This document shows, one piece after another, positions 14,616 through 55,032 of a stretch of DNA of 64,000 bases. The notes below the pieces were generated by a model. The model had not been told where the DNA came from, did no database searches, and saw only the letters and a program-made list of their open reading frames with translations. The stretch lies in assembly GCA_019638085.1 (NCBI GenBank), contig JAHBUL010000003.1, forward strand, positions 124,001-188,000. Reading direction: 5' to 3'. The position numbers and the translations under genes are program-made. The DNA comes from Flavobacteriales bacterium (GTDB lineage: Bacteria; Bacteroidota; Bacteroidia; Flavobacteriales_F; PHOS-HE28). Each line of letters begins with the position of its first letter. Position 1 is the stretch's first letter.

Positions 14616-15047
14616 ATGGACGAATTCATGCAAGCCGCCATCGACGAGGCGCACAAGGGACTTTCCGAAGGTGGCATCCCCATCGGCTCAGTATTGGTGA
14701 AGGACGGAAAACTGGTGGCCAGCGGACGCAACAAGCGCGTGCAGGAGAAGAACCCGATCCTCCACGGCGAAATGGATTGCCTGAACAACGCAGGCCGCAT
14801 CGGCAGCTACAAAGGCACCACGATCTACTCCACCCTGATGCCGTGCTACATGTGCGCCGGCACCATCGTCCAGTTCAAGATCCCCAAGGTGATCGTGGGC
14901 GAAAGCCGCACCTTCCCGGGAGCACGCAAGTTCATGGAGGAGCACGGCGTGGAAGTGATCGACCTCGATCTGCCGGAATGCGTGCGGATGATGGAGGACT
15001 TCATCGCCGCGAAGCCGGAGCTTTGGAATGAGGATATTGGGGAGTAG
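14616..15047 (+). CDS. Cytosine deaminase, yeast Fcy1 type
   Basis: This 143-residue zinc deaminase has HGEMD (Zn ligand His and catalytic Glu) and TLMPCYMCAG (two Cys ligands). The C-terminus WNEDIGE closely resembles the yeast cytosine deaminase ending WFEDIGE, and VIVGESRTF matches that subfamily better than guanine or tRNA adenosine deaminases. The expected reaction is cytosine to uracil in pyrimidine salvage. The stop codon TAG (15045-15047) shares its G with the first unit of a heptamer array. The substrate assignment is by motif only. Confidence 0.8.
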   Translation: MDEFMQAAIDEAHKGLSEGGIPIGSVLVKDGKLVASGRNKRVQEKNPILHGEMDCLNNAGRIGSYKGTTIYSTLMPCYMCAGTIVQFKIPKVIVGESRTFPGARKFMEEHGVEVIDLDLPECVRMMEDFIAAKPELWNEDIGE

Positions 15048-15216
15048 TTGTCAGTTGTCTGTTGCTAGTTGTCAGTTGTCTGTTGCTAGTTGTCAGGGTG
15101 CTTCGAGCTGATACCGTGCATAGCGAGCCCTACGTGGCTTGAAGCAGCACAGAACAACTTCCGGAGGCAAGAGCCTAAGGGTCGGACCTGACAACTAGCA
15201 ACAGACAACGGACAAC
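15047..15216. repeat. 170-bp element bounded by inverted GTTGTCN heptamer arrays
   Basis: Left array 15047-15095: seven exact 7-bp units ordered GTTGTCA, GTTGTCT, GTTGCTA, repeated 2.3 times. Right array 15189-15216: four units in inverted orientation (TGACAAC, TAGCAAC, AGACAAC, GGACAAC). The two arrays frame a core of about 93 bp and end inward as GTTGTCAGG/CCTGACAAC. The element exactly fills the gap between two convergent genes, starting in one stop codon and ending 6 nt before the other. Similar elements are at 42160-42363 and 53007-53331. Confidence 0.8.
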
Positions 15217-15222
15217 TGAAAC

Positions 15223-15693
15223 TCACTTCTTCTTCTCCCACTTCGGATCCGGAATGGGGATGGCTACCGTGTTGATGGGCTTCGCGTGCCCGTTGTGGCA
15301 AGTGATGCAGGTCACCTTGAATTGCGAGGTCAGGTAGTTCTCCTTGAAATCCCCCTTCACGGCGAAATGTGCGCTGTCCACCTCTTGCACCATCTTCATC
15401 ATGCCCAAGGCGGTCTTCTTCAGCTTGGTATCAGCCATGAAATCCAGCTTGGTGGTGTCGGAGGTGGAGCGCGCGTGGCAGTCCTTGCAGGAAAGTCCGA
15501 GGGCCACCTCGAAGCTGTGCATCACCTGCATCAGTTCATCATGGGAGATATCCTTGGGCAGTACTTTGAGGTTGTTCTCATGCTCTCCGTGTACGACGGC
15601 GGCAGGGGCGGGGCTGAAGGCATAGGTGCTGGCGATCAATAGGCCGGTGATCAGCGCCATCACAGCGGTTTTGTGATTGAATGAATGTGACAT
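15223..15693 (-). CDS. Secreted diheme c-type cytochrome
   Basis: ATG 15693 gives 156 residues with a signal peptide (to about residue 30). Two heme-binding CXXCH motifs are present, CKDCH and CITCH. The spacing, the HDELMQVMHSFEVALGLSCKDCH helix before the first heme, and LTSQFKVTCITCHNGHAKP around the second resemble the cytochrome subunit fold of photosynthetic reaction centres, a family common as small periplasmic cytochromes in non-phototrophic Bacteroidota. It is probably a periplasmic electron carrier; partner unknown. Confidence 0.8.
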   Translation of the reverse strand: MSHSFNHKTAVMALITGLLIASTYAFSPAPAAVVHGEHENNLKVLPKDISHDELMQVMHSFEVALGLSCKDCHARSTSDTTKLDFMADTKLKKTALGMMKMVQEVDSAHFAVKGDFKENYLTSQFKVTCITCHNGHAKPINTVAIPIPDPKWEKKK

Positions 15694-29580: not shown

Positions 29581-29823
29581 GATCAGACGATCAGAAGATC
29601 AGACGATCGGATGATCGTTCGACTCCGCAGGAAGTACCGACCTTTGTAGAACGGATCGACCCAATGCAACGGCAACAACCGAACAGCCATCCTTACAACC
29701 ATCAGATCAGCGTGAATCCGCTAGATCAGCGTCATCCGCGTTCCCGTTCGCCTTCCAATAAGGCCGGTATTCCATTTTCTGCCCCGATATGTATCGGGGA
29801 TCTGATCTTCTGATCATCTGATC
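29581..29823. repeat. Octamer-bounded repeat element between dapD and ruvX
   Basis: Five 8-bp units (GATCAGAC, GATCAGAA, GATCAGAC, GATCGGAT, GATCGTTC) at 29581-29620 face three inverted units at 29800-29823 that end 3 nt before the ruvX ATG. Between them lie short repeats of the type ATCNGCGT/GTCATCCGCGTT and the palindrome CCCCGATATGTATCGGGG (29782-29799). No gene is visible. Any ruvX promoter must be built from this element. Confidence 0.7.
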
Positions 29824-29826
29824 GAA

Positions 29827-30240
29827 ATGCGTGTCCTCGCCATCGACTTCGGCCTCAAGCGTACCGGCCTCGCCGTCACGGATCCAGCACGCATCATCGC
29901 ATCGGCTTTGGACACCGTGCCTTCCGCTGAACTGATGGCCTACCTGAAACGCTATGTCGCCAAGGAAGCCGTGGAGGGCTTTGTGGTGGGCATGCCGTGC
30001 AACTTGGATGGCACGCCAACGGATATCACCAAGAACGTGGTGCTTTTCATTTCAGCACTGAAGGAAGCTTTCCCAAGGCAGTGGGTGGAGACCGTGGATG
30101 AGCGTTTCACCTCCACGATCGCCCAGCGCACCATGCTCGAGAGTGGCATCGGAAAGATGGCCCGCCGGAACAAGGGCACGGTGGATCGGATCAGTGCGAC
30201 GATCATTCTGCAAAGCTGGATGGATCGAAGACGTTATTGA
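29827..30240 (+). CDS. ruvX: Putative pre-16S rRNA nuclease / Holliday junction resolvase-like YqgF
   Basis: This 137-residue RNase H-fold protein has the YqgF motifs: AIDFGLKRTGLAV (first acidic residue), VVGMPCNLDGTPTD, VDERFTSTIAQRTM (second acidic residue) and DRISATIILQSWMD (third). Family members process the 5' end of 16S rRNA and have also been proposed as resolvases. Length is normal. Its stop TGA (30238-30240) overlaps the first unit of a GAGTCCT array. Confidence 0.93.
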   Translation: MRVLAIDFGLKRTGLAVTDPARIIASALDTVPSAELMAYLKRYVAKEAVEGFVVGMPCNLDGTPTDITKNVVLFISALKEAFPRQWVETVDERFTSTIAQRTMLESGIGKMARRNKGTVDRISATIILQSWMDRRRY

Positions 30241-30402
30241 GTCCTGAGTCCTGAGTCCTGAGTCTCGAGTCCGCCCACCCCGGTCACCGGTCACCACTTA
30301 CCACTCACCACTCACCAGTCACCAGTCACCACTCACCACTCACCACTCACCACTCACCACTCACCATTCACCAGTCACCAGTCACCAGTCACCAGTCACC
30401 CT
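30239..30402. repeat. GAGTCCT array followed by a TCACCAN heptamer array
   Basis: Five GAGTCNN units (30239-30273) begin inside the ruvX stop codon. After a short spacer, about 17 head-to-tail heptamers of the TCACCAC/TCACCAG type run from 30284 to 30402. The units differ only at the last base or two. This is the longest array in the window and shows the same family order as 13012-12935 on the other strand. The rest of the gap to def holds a promoter box. Confidence 0.85.
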
Positions 30403-33830: not shown

Positions 33831-33893
33831 GGGTCTTGAGTCTTGAGTCGGGAGTCTTGAGTCCTGAGTCATGAGCTTGGAGACGCGAGTCTG
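33831..33893. repeat. GAGTCNN heptamer array
   Basis: About nine consecutive 7-bp units (GGGTCTT, GAGTCTT, GAGTCGG, GAGTCTT, GAGTCCT, GAGTCAT, then degenerate GAGCTTG, GAGACGC, GAGTCTG). The array begins 22 nt after the EamA stop and ends 19 nt before the -7 box of the next gene. Confidence 0.8.
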
Positions 33894-34826: not shown

Positions 34827-36614
34827 ATGCGGAAGCTATCCAAACTACAGGTCCAGCTGATGATCGCGCTCGTCGCCGCGCTGCTCTTCATCCCCGGTCT
34901 GGGCGCCGTACACCTCTTCGATTGGGACGAGATCAATTTCGCGGAGATCGCTCGGGAGATGCTGGCCACCAACAACTGGCTGCAACCGCAGATCGGCTAT
35001 GTGCCCTTCCATGAAAAGCCACCGCTCTTCATGTGGATGCAGGCCGGCAGCATGTCGGCTTTCGGCGTGAACGAGTTCGCTGCGCGCTTACCGAACGCCC
35101 TCTGCGGCATCATCACCTTGCTCGTCCTCTTCCGCATCGGTATGCGCATGCGCGGTCGGTTGTTCGGGTTGCTCTGGGTGCTGGCCTACGTTGGTTCCAT
35201 CCTGCCGCATCTCTACTTCCGCAGCGGCATCATCGACCCGTGGTTCAACCTCTTCATCTTCCTTGGTTTCCTGGCCTTCATCCACATGAGCGACACGGCT
35301 GTCAGTGCGGATCTTTCCTCCCGGCAGAAGAACATCGCCGCCGCGTTGGCCGGACTCTGGCTCGGATTGGCCGTGCTCACCAAAGGCCCGGTCGGCATCC
35401 TCATTCCAGCACTCGGTGCGCTGGTCTATTGGGTGATGAACCGGTTCAGGCTGTACGTTTCCATCCCACGCGTCCTGCTGATGTTCGCCGTGCTGCTCAT
35501 CGTCCCCGGTATCTGGTTCGGTGCGGACCTGCTGCAGAACGGTCCCACCTTCATCACGGCCTTCTTCTGGCGCCAAGTGGCCATGCTCTCCTCGGAAGAT
35601 GCCGGCCACGGAGGTTTTATCGGCTATCACTTCGTAGTGCTCCTGATCGGCTGCTTCCCAGCATCCATCTTCGCCTTGCAGGAAATGTTGAAACGTGCCC
35701 GCCCCCCCTTGTCGGTTCTCGACTGCGCTCGAACTGACAAGGGGGCGCAAGCAGCAGGACAGCAGCCTGACAACGGACAGCCTGACAACGGACAACTGAC
35801 AACTGACAACCGACAACTGACAACTCCTGCCCTGAGCGCAGTCGAAGGGGACAACTACAGAAAGTGGATGCTCATCCTCTTCTGGGTGGTCCTCATCCTC
35901 TTCAGCCTGGTCCAGACCAAGATCGTCCACTACAGCAGCCTCGCGTACTTCCCGCTCACCTTCCTTGCCGCACTGCAACTGGAGCACCTGTGGAACGGCG
36001 GCAGGGCCACGCTCTGGTCGCGATTGCTGATGGGCGCCATCGGAACGCTCTTCGCGCTGGTCACCTTACTGTTGCCCTACCTCGGCATGCACCCGGAACT
36101 GCTTGCGCCTTTGCTGAAGAACGATGCTTTCGCCCAGGGCAATCTGATGGCGGAAGTACACTGGACGGGCTGGGAAGCCCTGGCGGGCGTATGGATGGTG
36201 GTGATCCTTTACCTCGGCCACCGCTTTTTCTCCAGGGCAGAATACCGGAGCGGCATCATCTCCCTGTTCGGTGGCACAGCGCTCTTCGTCACCATCACGC
36301 TGTACTACTTCATCAACAACATCGAAGGCTATTCCCAGCGCGCCGCCGTGGAATTTTTCCAGCAGCGACAAGGAGAGAATTGCTATGTGATCACCAAGAA
36401 CTACAAGAGCTACGCGCAGTGGTTCTACAGCCTCACGCCACCCCTCACGGACCCGCACGCGTACAGTGAGGAATGGCTCCTGCACGGCGAGGTGGACCGG
36501 CCGGTGTACGTGGTGTGCAAGGTGACCAGTGCGGAAGAAGTGGCAACGATACCGACGCTGAAGGAGATCGGCCGGAAGAATGGCTTTGTTTTCTGGAAGC
36601 GGCAAGCACCTTGA
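34827..36614 (+). CDS. GT39/ArnT-like membrane glycosyltransferase with an in-frame repeat insertion
   Basis: This 595-residue GT-C enzyme has an N-terminal acidic motif in HLFDWDEINFAEIAREML (Asp-Glu, as in ArnT and protein mannosyltransferases), EKPPLFMWMQ, about twelve transmembrane helices, and a soluble C-terminal periplasmic part. It should transfer a sugar from polyprenyl phosphate to a lipid or protein acceptor on the periplasmic side. Residues about 291-342 (from RPPLSVLDC to AVEGD) are encoded by dispersed repeats (35704-35850) read in frame, between predicted helices. The last codons are duplicated at 37616-37648. Confidence 0.88.
   Translation: MRKLSKLQVQLMIALVAALLFIPGLGAVHLFDWDEINFAEIAREMLATNNWLQPQIGYVPFHEKPPLFMWMQAGSMSAFGVNEFAARLPNALCGIITLLVLFRIGMRMRGRLFGLLWVLAYVGSILPHLYFRSGIIDPWFNLFIFLGFLAFIHMSDTAVSADLSSRQKNIAAALAGLWLGLAVLTKGPVGILIPALGALVYWVMNRFRLYVSIPRVLLMFAVLLIVPGIWFGADLLQNGPTFITAFFWRQVAMLSSEDAGHGGFIGYHFVVLLIGCFPASIFALQEMLKRARPPLSVLDCARTDKGAQAAGQQPDNGQPDNGQLTTDNRQLTTPALSAVEGDNYRKWMLILFWVVLILFSLVQTKIVHYSSLAYFPLTFLAALQLEHLWNGGRATLWSRLLMGAIGTLFALVTLLLPYLGMHPELLAPLLKNDAFAQGNLMAEVHWTGWEALAGVWMVVILYLGHRFFSRAEYRSGIISLFGGTALFVTITLYYFINNIEGYSQRAAVEFFQQRQGENCYVITKNYKSYAQWFYSLTPPLTDPHAYSEEWLLHGEVDRPVYVVCKVTSAEEVATIPTLKEIGRKNGFVFWKRQAP
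35704..35850. repeat. Mosaic repeat inside the GT39 gene: hairpin, GTTGTCN array, REP-like sequence
   Basis: A long hairpin (CCCCCTTGTC/GACAAGGGGG, 35704-35745, with TTCTCGACTGCGCTCGAA in its centre) is followed by TGACAAC-type heptamers (about nine units, 35768-35824) and then CCTGCCCTGAGCGCAGTCGA (35826-35845), a REP-like palindrome half. The whole block is open in the gene frame, encoding a Gln/Asn/Thr-rich stretch. Confidence 0.8.
36582..36614 (+). repeat. Direct repeat copy 1 (3' end of the GT39 gene)
   Basis: The last 33 nt of the GT39 gene, encoding GFVFWKRQAP and the stop, recur at 37616-37648 (GFVFWKRENP and stop) with about five differences. Confidence 0.75.
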
Positions 36615-40492: not shown

Positions 40493-42160
40493 ATGTCCAG
40501 CCCGCTATTCCGCAAGAAATCCGTGGAGCGCATCATGCTCGATCATGCCGAGCGCGAGGCGGCAGGCCATCAGGGCATGAAACGCACCCTCACCGTGCGC
40601 GACCTCACCTTCATGGGTGTGGCGGCGGTGATCGGCGCGGGCATTTTCAGCACGGTGGGCGCGGCAGCCTACGAGGGCGGCCCAGGGGTGGTCTTCCTCT
40701 TCATCATCACGGCGGCGGTATGCGGCTTCACTGCACTTTGTTATGCGGAATTCGCGGGGCGCGTGCCGGTGAGTGGCAGTGCATACACATACAGCTATGT
40801 GGCTTTTGGCGAAGTGGTGGCGTGGATCATCGGCTGGGCGTTGATCCTCGAATATGCCATCGGCAACGTGGTGGTCGCCATCTCGTGGAGCAGCTATTTC
40901 ACCAACATTTTAGCGGCGTTCGGCATTCATCTGCCCACTTGGCTCACGGCGGATCCGCTCAGCGCCAAGGCCGCCTTTGACGAAGCGACCCTGATGGGCG
41001 CATCCACCGAGGGGCTGGCCTGGGCCACCGCACCGGTGATCGGCGGCTGGCATGTGATCATGAACATTCCGGCACTGTTGATCGTGGTGGCCGTGACCGC
41101 CTTGGTATACATCGGCATCCAGGAAAGCAAGAAGGCCGCCAACGGCATGGTGATCTTGAAGTTGGTGCTGCTTGGTGCCGTAGCACTGGTGGGCCTGTGG
41201 TACATCAAAGGGGCCAACTATGTGCCTTTCCTGCCGAATGGCATGGGTGGCGTGCTGCGCGGCGTCAGTGCGGTCTTCTTCGCCTACATCGGCTTCGATG
41301 CCATCAGCACCACGGCGGAGGAATGCAAGGACCCGCAACGCGACCTGCCGCGAAGCATGATGTATGCGCTGATCATCTGCACGGTGATCTACTGCATCAC
41401 GGCATTGGTGCTCACCGGCATGGTGCCCTACACGGAGTTCAAGGGCGTGATGGATCCGTTGGCGTACGTGTTCAACAAGGTGGACCTGCCTGCCTTCGGA
41501 TTTGCCATAAGTGTGGGTGCGGTGATCGCGGCCACCAGTGTGCTGCTGGTGTTCCAGCTGGGCCAACCGCGCATCTGGATGAGCATGAGCCGCGATGGCT
41601 TGTTGCCCCCGCGCTTCGGACACCTGCATCGGAAATTCGGCACGCCGGCCTTCGCCACCATCGTTACCGGTGTACTCGTGGGCATTCCGGCGCTCTTTGC
41701 CCCGAGCGACATCATCACCGACCTCACGTCCATCGGCACCTTGTTCGCCTTTACGCTCGTTTGCGGCGGGGTGCTTCTTCTGCCACGGGCGAACAGATTG
41801 GATAGCAAAGGCCGCAAGCGCTTCCAGATCCCCTACATCAACGGCCGCTACCTCCTGCCGCTGTTGGTACTGTCCTACTATTACCTGGACCATGAGCGCT
41901 TATGGATGGCCTTTACCAGCATGCATCTGGATCGGCAATCGGTGCTGATGGCGGGCTTCGCCATTTTCGCGCTGGGCACGGCGGTGCAGACGTTCCGCAG
42001 GCGCTATTCGCTGATTCCCTGCATCGGCATGCTCAGCTGCGCCTACTTAATGACAGAGATACCCGCAGCAAGCTGGGAGGTCTTCTTCGGCTGGATGGCC
42101 TTGGGCTTGTTGGTGTATTTCCTGTATAGCCGCAGGCATAGTAAGCTCAGAGCAGGCTAG
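40493..42160 (+). CDS. APC-family amino acid permease (CAT type)
   Basis: This 555-residue protein has about 14 transmembrane helices. It has the APC signature FMGVAAVIGAGIFSTVGAAAY in helix 1, SGSAYTYSYVAFGEVVAWIIGWALILEY in helix 3, and FFAYIGFDAISTTAEECKDPQRDLPRSM in helix 6 and the following loop, as in cationic amino acid transporters. It imports amino acids by exchange or proton symport; specificity cannot be assigned. The stop TAG shares its G with a GTTGTCN array. Confidence 0.93.
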   Translation: MSSPLFRKKSVERIMLDHAEREAAGHQGMKRTLTVRDLTFMGVAAVIGAGIFSTVGAAAYEGGPGVVFLFIITAAVCGFTALCYAEFAGRVPVSGSAYTYSYVAFGEVVAWIIGWALILEYAIGNVVVAISWSSYFTNILAAFGIHLPTWLTADPLSAKAAFDEATLMGASTEGLAWATAPVIGGWHVIMNIPALLIVVAVTALVYIGIQESKKAANGMVILKLVLLGAVALVGLWYIKGANYVPFLPNGMGGVLRGVSAVFFAYIGFDAISTTAEECKDPQRDLPRSMMYALIICTVIYCITALVLTGMVPYTEFKGVMDPLAYVFNKVDLPAFGFAISVGAVIAATSVLLVFQLGQPRIWMSMSRDGLLPPRFGHLHRKFGTPAFATIVTGVLVGIPALFAPSDIITDLTSIGTLFAFTLVCGGVLLLPRANRLDSKGRKRFQIPYINGRYLLPLLVLSYYYLDHERLWMAFTSMHLDRQSVLMAGFAIFALGTAVQTFRRRYSLIPCIGMLSCAYLMTEIPAASWEVFFGWMALGLLVYFLYSRRHSKLRAG

Positions 42161-42363
42161 TTGTCGTGTATCAGTTGTCCGTTGTCAGTTGTTAGTTGTC
42201 CGGCTGCCGATGTGGCTCTAAGCTGTCTTGCGATGTGGCTCGTTCGGTTCTCTTGACTGCCTCCACGCTGGTTTTCGAAGCGGAAATTGTTGGAAGTGAA
42301 GCATTCAATCTGCGCGCTGAACTACCCAAGAGTCCTGCCAACGGACAACTGACAATGGACAAC
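42160..42363. repeat. 204-bp element bounded by inverted GTTGTCN heptamer arrays
   Basis: Left array 42160-42201 has six units (one degenerate), starting inside the stop codon of the permease gene. Right array 42336-42363 has four inverted units (TGCCAAC, GGACAAC, TGACAAT, GGACAAC). The core of about 135 bp contains two copies of GATGTGGCTC and no gene. The architecture is the same as at 15047-15216. Confidence 0.8.
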
Positions 42364-42386
42364 TAAGGGGAACTCGGAACTATCAA

Positions 42387-46833: not shown

Positions 46834-47400
46834 GTCCGCATTCGGGCGCACATCGAAGTAGAGTGCGCCGTAAAGGAAATTCGATACGCTATCGGTGAGG
46901 TAGAACACCATGGGGCTGGCCACATTGCCATCCACGGCGAAAATGGTACCGAACACACGGGCGCTATCACGTAACACTTCCTCTACCTTGATGCGCGTGG
47001 CCAATACTTGGTGCTTCTGCTTGAATTCGTGCGCATCCCGCACCAGCTCCGGCAGGTCGCCCTCCACCCGGCGCCATGTCATGTGTACCGCGGCTCGCTG
47101 ATCCGGAAAAAGCATGTTGGTCCAGCACGTGCGTCCATCATCCGGGCCGATCCCCTTGCCTTCCACCAAGCGGGCGTACACCGGCACTTCCGCCGTGAAC
47201 GGGCAATGGCTGGGAACAGTGTGCGTGCTGTCCGGCGGAAGGTCGATCCGGAAATAGCCACGAGGCTTGGGGACGGGATCCTCCGTACAGCTGGTAGTAA
47301 GCGTCATAAGCAGCACCAAACCAAGACAAGCAGTCAGCCCCAGTCTCCTCCTGACAACTGACAACTGGGAACGGACTACTAACCCCCTAAGCCACCTCAT
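46732..47400 (-). CDS. gldD: Gliding motility lipoprotein GldD
   Basis: This 222-residue lipoprotein has a signal ending LTTSCTED and the GldD core PKPRGYFRIDLPP, VPVYARLVEGK, WTNMLFPDQRAAVHMTWRRVEGDL and SNFLYGALYFDVRPNADSLAPV. GldD is needed for gliding and type IX secretion in Flavobacterium. ATG 47400 overlaps the gldE stop. Heptamer repeats encode part of the region before the signal (47352-47379). About 11 residues after HSLRW extend past the usual end into antisense overlap with the COX15 gene. Confidence 0.93.
   Translation of the reverse strand: MRWLRGLVVRSQLSVVRRRLGLTACLGLVLLMTLTTSCTEDPVPKPRGYFRIDLPPDSTHTVPSHCPFTAEVPVYARLVEGKGIGPDDGRTCWTNMLFPDQRAAVHMTWRRVEGDLPELVRDAHEFKQKHQVLATRIKVEEVLRDSARVFGTIFAVDGNVASPMVFYLTDSVSNFLYGALYFDVRPNADSLAPVTERIRTDIRSFAHSLRWNDPAGVVQHVQ
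47352..47379. repeat. GTTGTCN-type heptamers inside the 5' end of gldD
   Basis: TGACAAC, TGACAAC, TGGGAAC and GGACTAC follow each other in 7-bp register. In gldD they encode VVRSQLSVV between the ATG and the hydrophobic signal core, so the repeat has lengthened or replaced the start of the protein. Confidence 0.6.
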
Positions 47401-53000: not shown

Positions 53001-53006
53001 GTTCCA

Positions 53007-53331
53007 GTTGTCAGTTGTTGGTTGTTCGTTGTCAGGACTGGCGCAGCGGCTTTTTGCGCTTGGCTAGTTCTGTGCAGCACATCGCTTGGAGCTGCCAGTC
53101 CTCAGGGTATAGGGGATATGGCTGATCTTGGACCACAGATGTCACGGATGAATGCTTTCGGGGCCGGACTTTGCCATCGCGAACTATGCCGCTTCCGCGC
53201 AGCGGAAACATTTGTGAAATCTGCGTCATCCGTTAAAATTACTTCGTGGGGAGATGAGGAAGTGACACACCAGTAATGCGCACTGAATTGGCCAAGCCCC
53301 CCCTGACAACGAACAACTGACAACGGACAAC
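53007..53331. repeat. 325-bp element bounded by inverted GTTGTCN heptamer arrays
   Basis: Left array 53007-53034 (GTTGTCA, GTTGTTG, GTTGTTC, GTTGTCA) and right array 53304-53331 (TGACAAC, GAACAAC, TGACAAC, GGACAAC) are inverted and end inward as CAGG/CCTG, like the element at 15047. The core contains a degenerate inverted stretch CCACAGATGTCACGGATGAA ... AAATCTGCGTCATCCGTTAA. No gene is visible in 53001-53333. The right array stops 2 nt before the recX ATG. Confidence 0.8.
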
Positions 53332-53333
53332 TA

Positions 53334-54983: not shown

Positions 54984-55004
54984 TTTGACGATTGAAATGG
55001 TAGG

Positions 55005-55032
55005 GTTGTCAGTTGTTAGTTGTCGGTTGTCC
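55005..55032. repeat. Single GTTGTCN heptamer array
   Basis: Four units (GTTGTCA, GTTGTTA, GTTGTCG, GTTGTCC) lie between prfB and the ArsC-like gene. No inverted partner is visible nearby, so this is a solo array. Confidence 0.7.

Follow-up and report, generated by a model that had tools for sequence, protein, structure and literature searches.

Dispersed heptamers and palindromes read in frame in a loop of an ArnT-like glycosyltransferase of a Flavobacteriales bacterium: a probable case of layered, tolerated repeat insertion

Results

A repeat mosaic within a glycosyltransferase gene

The DNA under study, hereafter the window, is a stretch of 64,000 nucleotides from a Flavobacteriales bacterium, and on its + strand, at 34827-36614, lies a gene for a protein of 595 amino acids, the reading frame of which runs open through a segment built of repeats. 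The protein contains the Pfam domain PMT_2 (E 1.9e-13), and its AlphaFold2 model, with a mean pLDDT of 89 and values mostly above 90 outside the insert, found its best PDB fold in ArnT (5ezm, E 2.2e-17), a second ArnT structure, 5f15, also matching. The sequence-only reading had labeled the product a GT39 glycosyltransferase, of which the word glycosyltransferase stands; however, the GT39 protein mannosyltransferase identity was rejected on structure comparison, in which Pmt4 scored 2.6e-5 against the 2.2e-17 of ArnT, and ‘ArnT-like GT-C’ is the better description by both domain and fold. The protein shares the PMT_2 domain and the fold with ArnT and the GT-C enzymes, but differs from them in a loop between two helices, residues 285-346, which is lengthened by the repeats; the helix count and the basic residues suggest that this loop faces the cytoplasm.

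The mosaic itself occupies 35696-35855 and consists of a hairpin, about nine heptamers of the NGACAAC type and a REP-like palindrome, all in frame and together adding approximately 43 amino acids. The hairpin (35696-35753, + strand), which is common to the sister species G013, has arms of 23 nt at 35696-35718 and 35731-35753 that are 83% complementary, with a predicted energy of -34.9 kcal/mol, and its core, GGTTCTCGACTGCGCTCGAACTGACA, is located at 35714-35739. The heptamer array follows at 35768-35825 (+ strand), with about eight NGACAAC units that are translated as QPDNGQPDNGQLTTDNRQLTT; Tandem Repeats Finder reported a period of 7 and 8.3 copies at 35767-35825, and a tolerant scan placed eight units at 35769-35824. 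The REP-like palindrome, CCCTGAGC-NNN-GTCGAAGGG (35830-35849, + strand), reads CCCTGAGCGCAGTCGAAGGG and sits between two heptamer units, the second of which is the ninth, a GACAAC at 35850-35855 (+ strand) directly after the palindrome.

The earlier account of this segment, made from the letters alone, proved accurate in nearly all respects: ORF analysis found the frame open over the whole repeat segment, the complementary arms of the hairpin lie inside the gene as described, the ‘about nine’ heptamers are the eight of the array plus the one at 35850, and the REP-like piece is present and dispersed, with 12 copies in the genome against one match of the reversed control. Apart from the GT39 label, it erred in one point, namely that all the repeats were taken as dispersed; this holds for the heptamers and the REP-like piece, but not for the exact hairpin, of which no further copy was found in its own genome.

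Loop length and age of the insert

Among 34 aligned Bacteroidota orthologues, the loop measures 18-19 residues in 27 and 20-23 in three, and in the other four it measures 62, 55, 37 and 33, the first of these being the window protein; the orthologues thus contain no equally long conserved segment at this position, and the long loops (33-62 residues) are confined to one clade. Within the genus, the long loop occurs in eight species, which form a single clade (support 100/99) on a tree built without the loop sequence, a distribution that requires one change (none of 500 shuffles was as low). Codons of the heptamer type (PDNQQxTTxN and variants) were recognized in seven of these eight; in G006 (L003), a palindrome fills the glycosyltransferase loop, and heptamers are hard to recognize.

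The palindromes, on the other hand, vary by lineage. In the glycosyltransferase loop, CCCTGAGC-NNN-GTCGAAGGG is found in the window species alone, a different palindrome in G013 alone, CCTCAGGGTCCCCTTCGGGAGACCGCTGAGG in G004 and G006, and yet another in G020. The CCTCAGGGTCCCCTTCGGGAGACCGCTGAGG palindrome is dispersed, with 15 copies in G004, 8 in G006 and 16 in G032, whereas the reversed control gave no copy; among its variants, the stem is preserved through paired changes. One paired change is likewise seen in the hairpin stem shared by the window genome (G000) and G013, and a family of this hairpin has eight copies in G013 and eight in G002, with paired changes in the core stem. It is to be noted that the copies of this family (L174-L200) have a common core, with outer arms that form a different palindrome at each site (about 18 bp in L198), as if each stem had grown by copying of the sequence beside it. 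At the level of sequence, the tree and the alignment show that the eight-species clade owes its heptamers to a single gain in its ancestor, and that different palindromes, among them members of dispersed families, joined the loop later, in different lineages. Farther afield, in a Saprospiraceae orthologue (L088, around 4413), a heptamer stretch of the GGTTCAA type was observed in frame in a different loop, with no gain in length.

Readability, selection and disorder of the insert

As 7 and 3 are coprime, all three frames of a heptamer array encode one and the same cycle of seven residues, namely D-N-x-Q-x-T-T or, in the opposite orientation, V-V-x-C-x-L-S. A stop codon (TGA) can arise only in the D-N-x-Q-x-T-T orientation, where a T occupies the variable position in the critical phase. 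Across the eight genes with in-frame arrays, the variable base was T in none of the 10 TGA-critical positions, as against 15 of 18 elsewhere (Fisher p 2e-5). Since an open frame forces a base other than T in the critical phase, the bias shows the repeats to be read as codons, and is not evidence of benefit.

Both halves of the glycosyltransferase gave dN/dS values of 0.13-0.24 in every comparison, and thus the part that follows the insert must still be made and selected. The insert itself had a dN of 0.16-1.45, compared to 0.02-0.17 for the rest of the protein, and was predicted to be disordered, with a pLDDT of about 50 over residues 290-340.

The heptamer family in the window and the genome

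The heptamer pattern matched the genome 177 times, and its control once; in the window, the array pattern gave 26 matches, where 0.01 would be expected from shuffles. Four units make up 50 of the 76 arrays examined, and neighboring arrays, 6-271 bp apart, face inward in 18 pairs and outward in one. Within a pair, the likeness of the two arms did not significantly exceed that of shuffled arms (p 0.12), a result that lends no support to their co-evolution and that would not be predicted for a simple element with matching inverted ends; of the features of a MITE, the inward orientation is nonetheless present.

Many arrays abut stop or start codons, and most are inward-facing pairs between genes. 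Such pairs occur in the window at 15046-15223, at 42159-42364, where the pair begins at a stop codon, and at 53006-53332, where the left arm lies 6 nt after a stop and the right arm 2 nt before a start; single arrays are located at 47351-47379 (+ strand), adjoining a stop codon, and at 55004-55032 (- strand), 21 nt after one. The pair at 15046-15223, which is 139047-139223 on contig C23, was the sole intergenic pair compared with G013, and it falls at a break in synteny, no exact empty site being recovered: the G013 match to the left gene flank ends at contig position 139045 (window 15045), at the very stop codon where the pair starts. Arrays of this kind may sit at rearrangement points. At the same pair, about 2.4 kb of the window genome (contig C23, 139047-141444) are missing in G013.

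The number of heptamer matches varies widely in the genus, from 0 to 289 per genome, and arrays of period 7 built of other units are over-represented throughout Bacteroidota, where the counts were 26 for period 7, 11 for period 8, and 0-2 for periods 4, 5, 10, 11 and 13. A search of plasmid records returned no match. Other heptamer families (TGAGTCC / GTCTTGA, TCACCAC) were also observed in the genome, at 30238-30400 and 33833-33879 of the window and at 15429, 154233 and 157828 of contig C23.

Three of the 12 REP-like copies in the genome sit within heptamer arrays, with identical junctions. This exceeds chance under a simple uniform model (P ~2e-6), and the arrays thus look like preferred landing places of these palindromes. 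As in REP (PMC3733652), the palindromes are short and dispersed, and their stems are kept by paired changes; they differ in that copies here lie within a gene, beside or inside heptamer arrays. The genome has two matches to Y1_Tnp, the domain of REP-associated (RAYT) transposases, but the analysis revealed neither movement of the repeats, nor target duplication, nor an enzyme to account for them.

In-frame arrays in other conserved genes

The survey covered the heptamer matches listed and the stretches around them, 547 kb in all, so that the in-gene arrays counted are a minimum; array sites were scanned for long open frames, which were then checked against solved homologues or genus orthologues. 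By this analysis of predicted frames, at least seven further conserved genes of the genome have heptamer arrays in frame: rsgA (L172 14867-15925, + strand), miaB (L222 2937-4553, -), argS (L209 2745-4649, -), dnaE (L206 1313-5035, +), an FAD oxidoreductase gene (L201 2199-3572, -), fdhD (L218 2397-3284, +) and a ROK kinase gene (L173 11954-12979, +). Several other in-gene candidates were rejected by eye, namely those at L167, L168, L207, L213, L063 and L096, where the frame looks like the antisense of another gene, and that at L212, where the array lies near the likely start.

In alignments of the glycosyltransferase, RsgA, MiaB, ArgS and the FAD oxidoreductase, the insertion is missing from orthologues, the gene being open. 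The RsgA insert consists of 38 residues located before the IIDTPG motif, and is missing from solved RsgA structures and from many relatives; the sequence DNRQLTTDNSSPTFIIDTPGVK belongs to this region. That of MiaB lies in the C-terminal TRAM region, DnaE has about 52 extra residues relative to the E. coli polymerase, and the array of the FAD oxidoreductase was found only in the window genome and G013 among 12 relatives searched. The array of the ROK kinase occupies a loop that is longer by only about two residues net than in a solved homologue, and is thus weak evidence of an insertion.

The type of repeat in the RsgA, MiaB and ArgS loops differs by species, units of GACAAC, CGAAC, GCCACTC, TGAGTCC and GATCAGA being represented; these differences between lineages at the same loop could also reflect turnover in place. 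The RsgA loop of G013, for example, has an array of the TGAGTCC type in place of GACAAC. The ArgS loop of G024 and G010 (L312, L309) contains other short repeats, of the CATGGGCA and GATCAGA types, and has thus been hit by several repeat families. Two further features were noted in these proteins: DnaE (L206) has additional low-complexity inserts, KCKMENVESRT and a long PSPPSPP run, and a RSDDQTIRRSDD stretch of MiaB (L222) resembles the translation of a GATCAGAC octamer repeat present at 29581-29616 of the window.

Discussion

We consider it very probable that the segment consists of layered in-frame insertions of dispersed repeats in a short loop of conserved length, where they are tolerated. 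A heptamer array of about four NGACAAC units (28 nt) arrived once, in the ancestor of the eight-species clade, and REP-like palindromes of several dispersed families then settled in or beside it, lineage by lineage. The frame has stayed open through the identity of the heptapeptide in all phases, with TGA avoided by a base other than T in one unit of three, and the protein would have been kept since the added disordered loop is tolerated, as its predicted disorder, its fast evolution and the conserved flanks suggest. In this genome, no fewer than seven other conserved genes undergo the same process, and the repeats presumably spread by copying, whether by non-autonomous transposition, by template switching or by both. 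Of the earlier proposal that the repeats are ‘tolerated, or used, as protein linkers’, the loops and the seven or more genes bear out tolerance, but the fast evolution and predicted disorder of the insert do not favor use.

A serious rival for the arrays, though less so for the palindromes, is that the arrays grew in place at tolerant loops, by slippage or by fold-back template switching, their similarity reflecting a mutational bias toward seven-base periods together with turnover; we regard this as possible, if not the likelier course. Such growth would account for the many different units of period-7 arrays across Bacteroidota, for the change of unit from one species to another within the loops of rsgA and miaB, and for pair arms that are no more alike than shuffled ones, and fold-back copying would produce outer arms like those of the hairpin family, which are site-specific and nonetheless palindromic; moreover, PMC4679880 reports, citing Mrazek and colleagues, a model in which heptamers arise by slippage. 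However, slippage alone predicts neither the dominance of one unit in the window genome, with its 177 matches, nor the preference for four units, nor the strong inward orientation, and the palindromes of the loop belong to dispersed families.

That the inserts are selected because they serve as linkers in the protein, or because they act in the RNA, for instance as hairpins that pace the translation of the membrane protein or of core enzymes, appears improbable. The array has indeed been retained throughout the eight-species clade, the hairpin stem common to the window genome and G013 bears a paired change, and conserved core genes keep such inserts; against this, the insert is predicted disordered and evolves at a far higher rate than the remaining protein (see the dN ranges above), its length and content differ between sister species, and most of the genus does without it. 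An artefact of assembly or binning is more improbable still, and very much so, even though assembly errors typically arise at repeats and metagenomes have supplied a large part of the assemblies of the genus: separate assemblies of eight species have in-frame arrays at the same loop, the hairpin recurs in a separate assembly at 94% protein identity, and the frame and the critical bases are preserved.

A more speculative and rather doubtful reading is that the inward four-unit pairs are a spreading element with a frame-independent peptide. A pair placed at a turn would then read as two antiparallel strands, as in the FAD oxidoreductase (LSVVSSQLSG ... NGQLTT), the palindrome in the DNA becoming a hairpin in the protein, and genomes would swap the unit sequence by lineage in the same loops.

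The nearest biological parallel appears to be the Rickettsia palindromic elements (RPE; PMC10969869), which are about 150 bp long, form ten families and encode a conserved peptide. Compared by anatomy, the two systems resemble each other in having dispersed repeats in frame within unrelated open genes and also between genes, and here, too, the elements are found elsewhere in the genome (177 heptamer matches, 12 REP-like copies, eight genes with in-frame arrays). The repeats of the present Bacteroidota, in contrast, are 28-nt heptamer arrays, single or in inverted pairs, and hairpins of 20-60 nt, which are nested on each other and differ between species at the same loop. Nearest in sequence are the TAACTGA heptamers (MacGregor 2015, PMC4679880), which are direct repeats, with one indirect case, and mostly intergenic, the coding copies lying mostly at protein ends. 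They, too, are seven-base units near gene starts and stops, occur in some Bacteroidetes, and are one base away from CAACTGA, a rotation of TGACAAC; their translations, LITDN* and LSVISYQ, parallel LTTDN and QLSVVS here. Nonetheless, identity with the TAACTGA direct repeats was rejected, as the unit here is NGACAAC (rotation CAACTGA) and mostly forms inward-facing pairs; furthermore, the arrays here mostly have four units, lie inside core protein domains, and have the stop base replaced. A literature search of limited reach found no account of inverted heptamer pairs, nor of such pairs lying in frame in Bacteroidota core genes.

Rickettsia offers the best-documented example of dispersed repeats spreading in frame into many unrelated genes, and there a reduced genome and relaxed selection might be the cause. 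The present genomes belong to a different phylum and measure about 4 Mb, and the genes affected include conserved ones such as rsgA, argS, dnaE and miaB. The material comprises dozens of species at graded distances, in which the same loop is empty, holds a single array, or has been multiply invaded in close relatives. Since these states coexist in close relatives, whether such an insert is tolerated or has become a working part of the protein is directly testable. The findings also caution that a long loop in a protein predicted from a Bacteroidota genome may derive from repeats.
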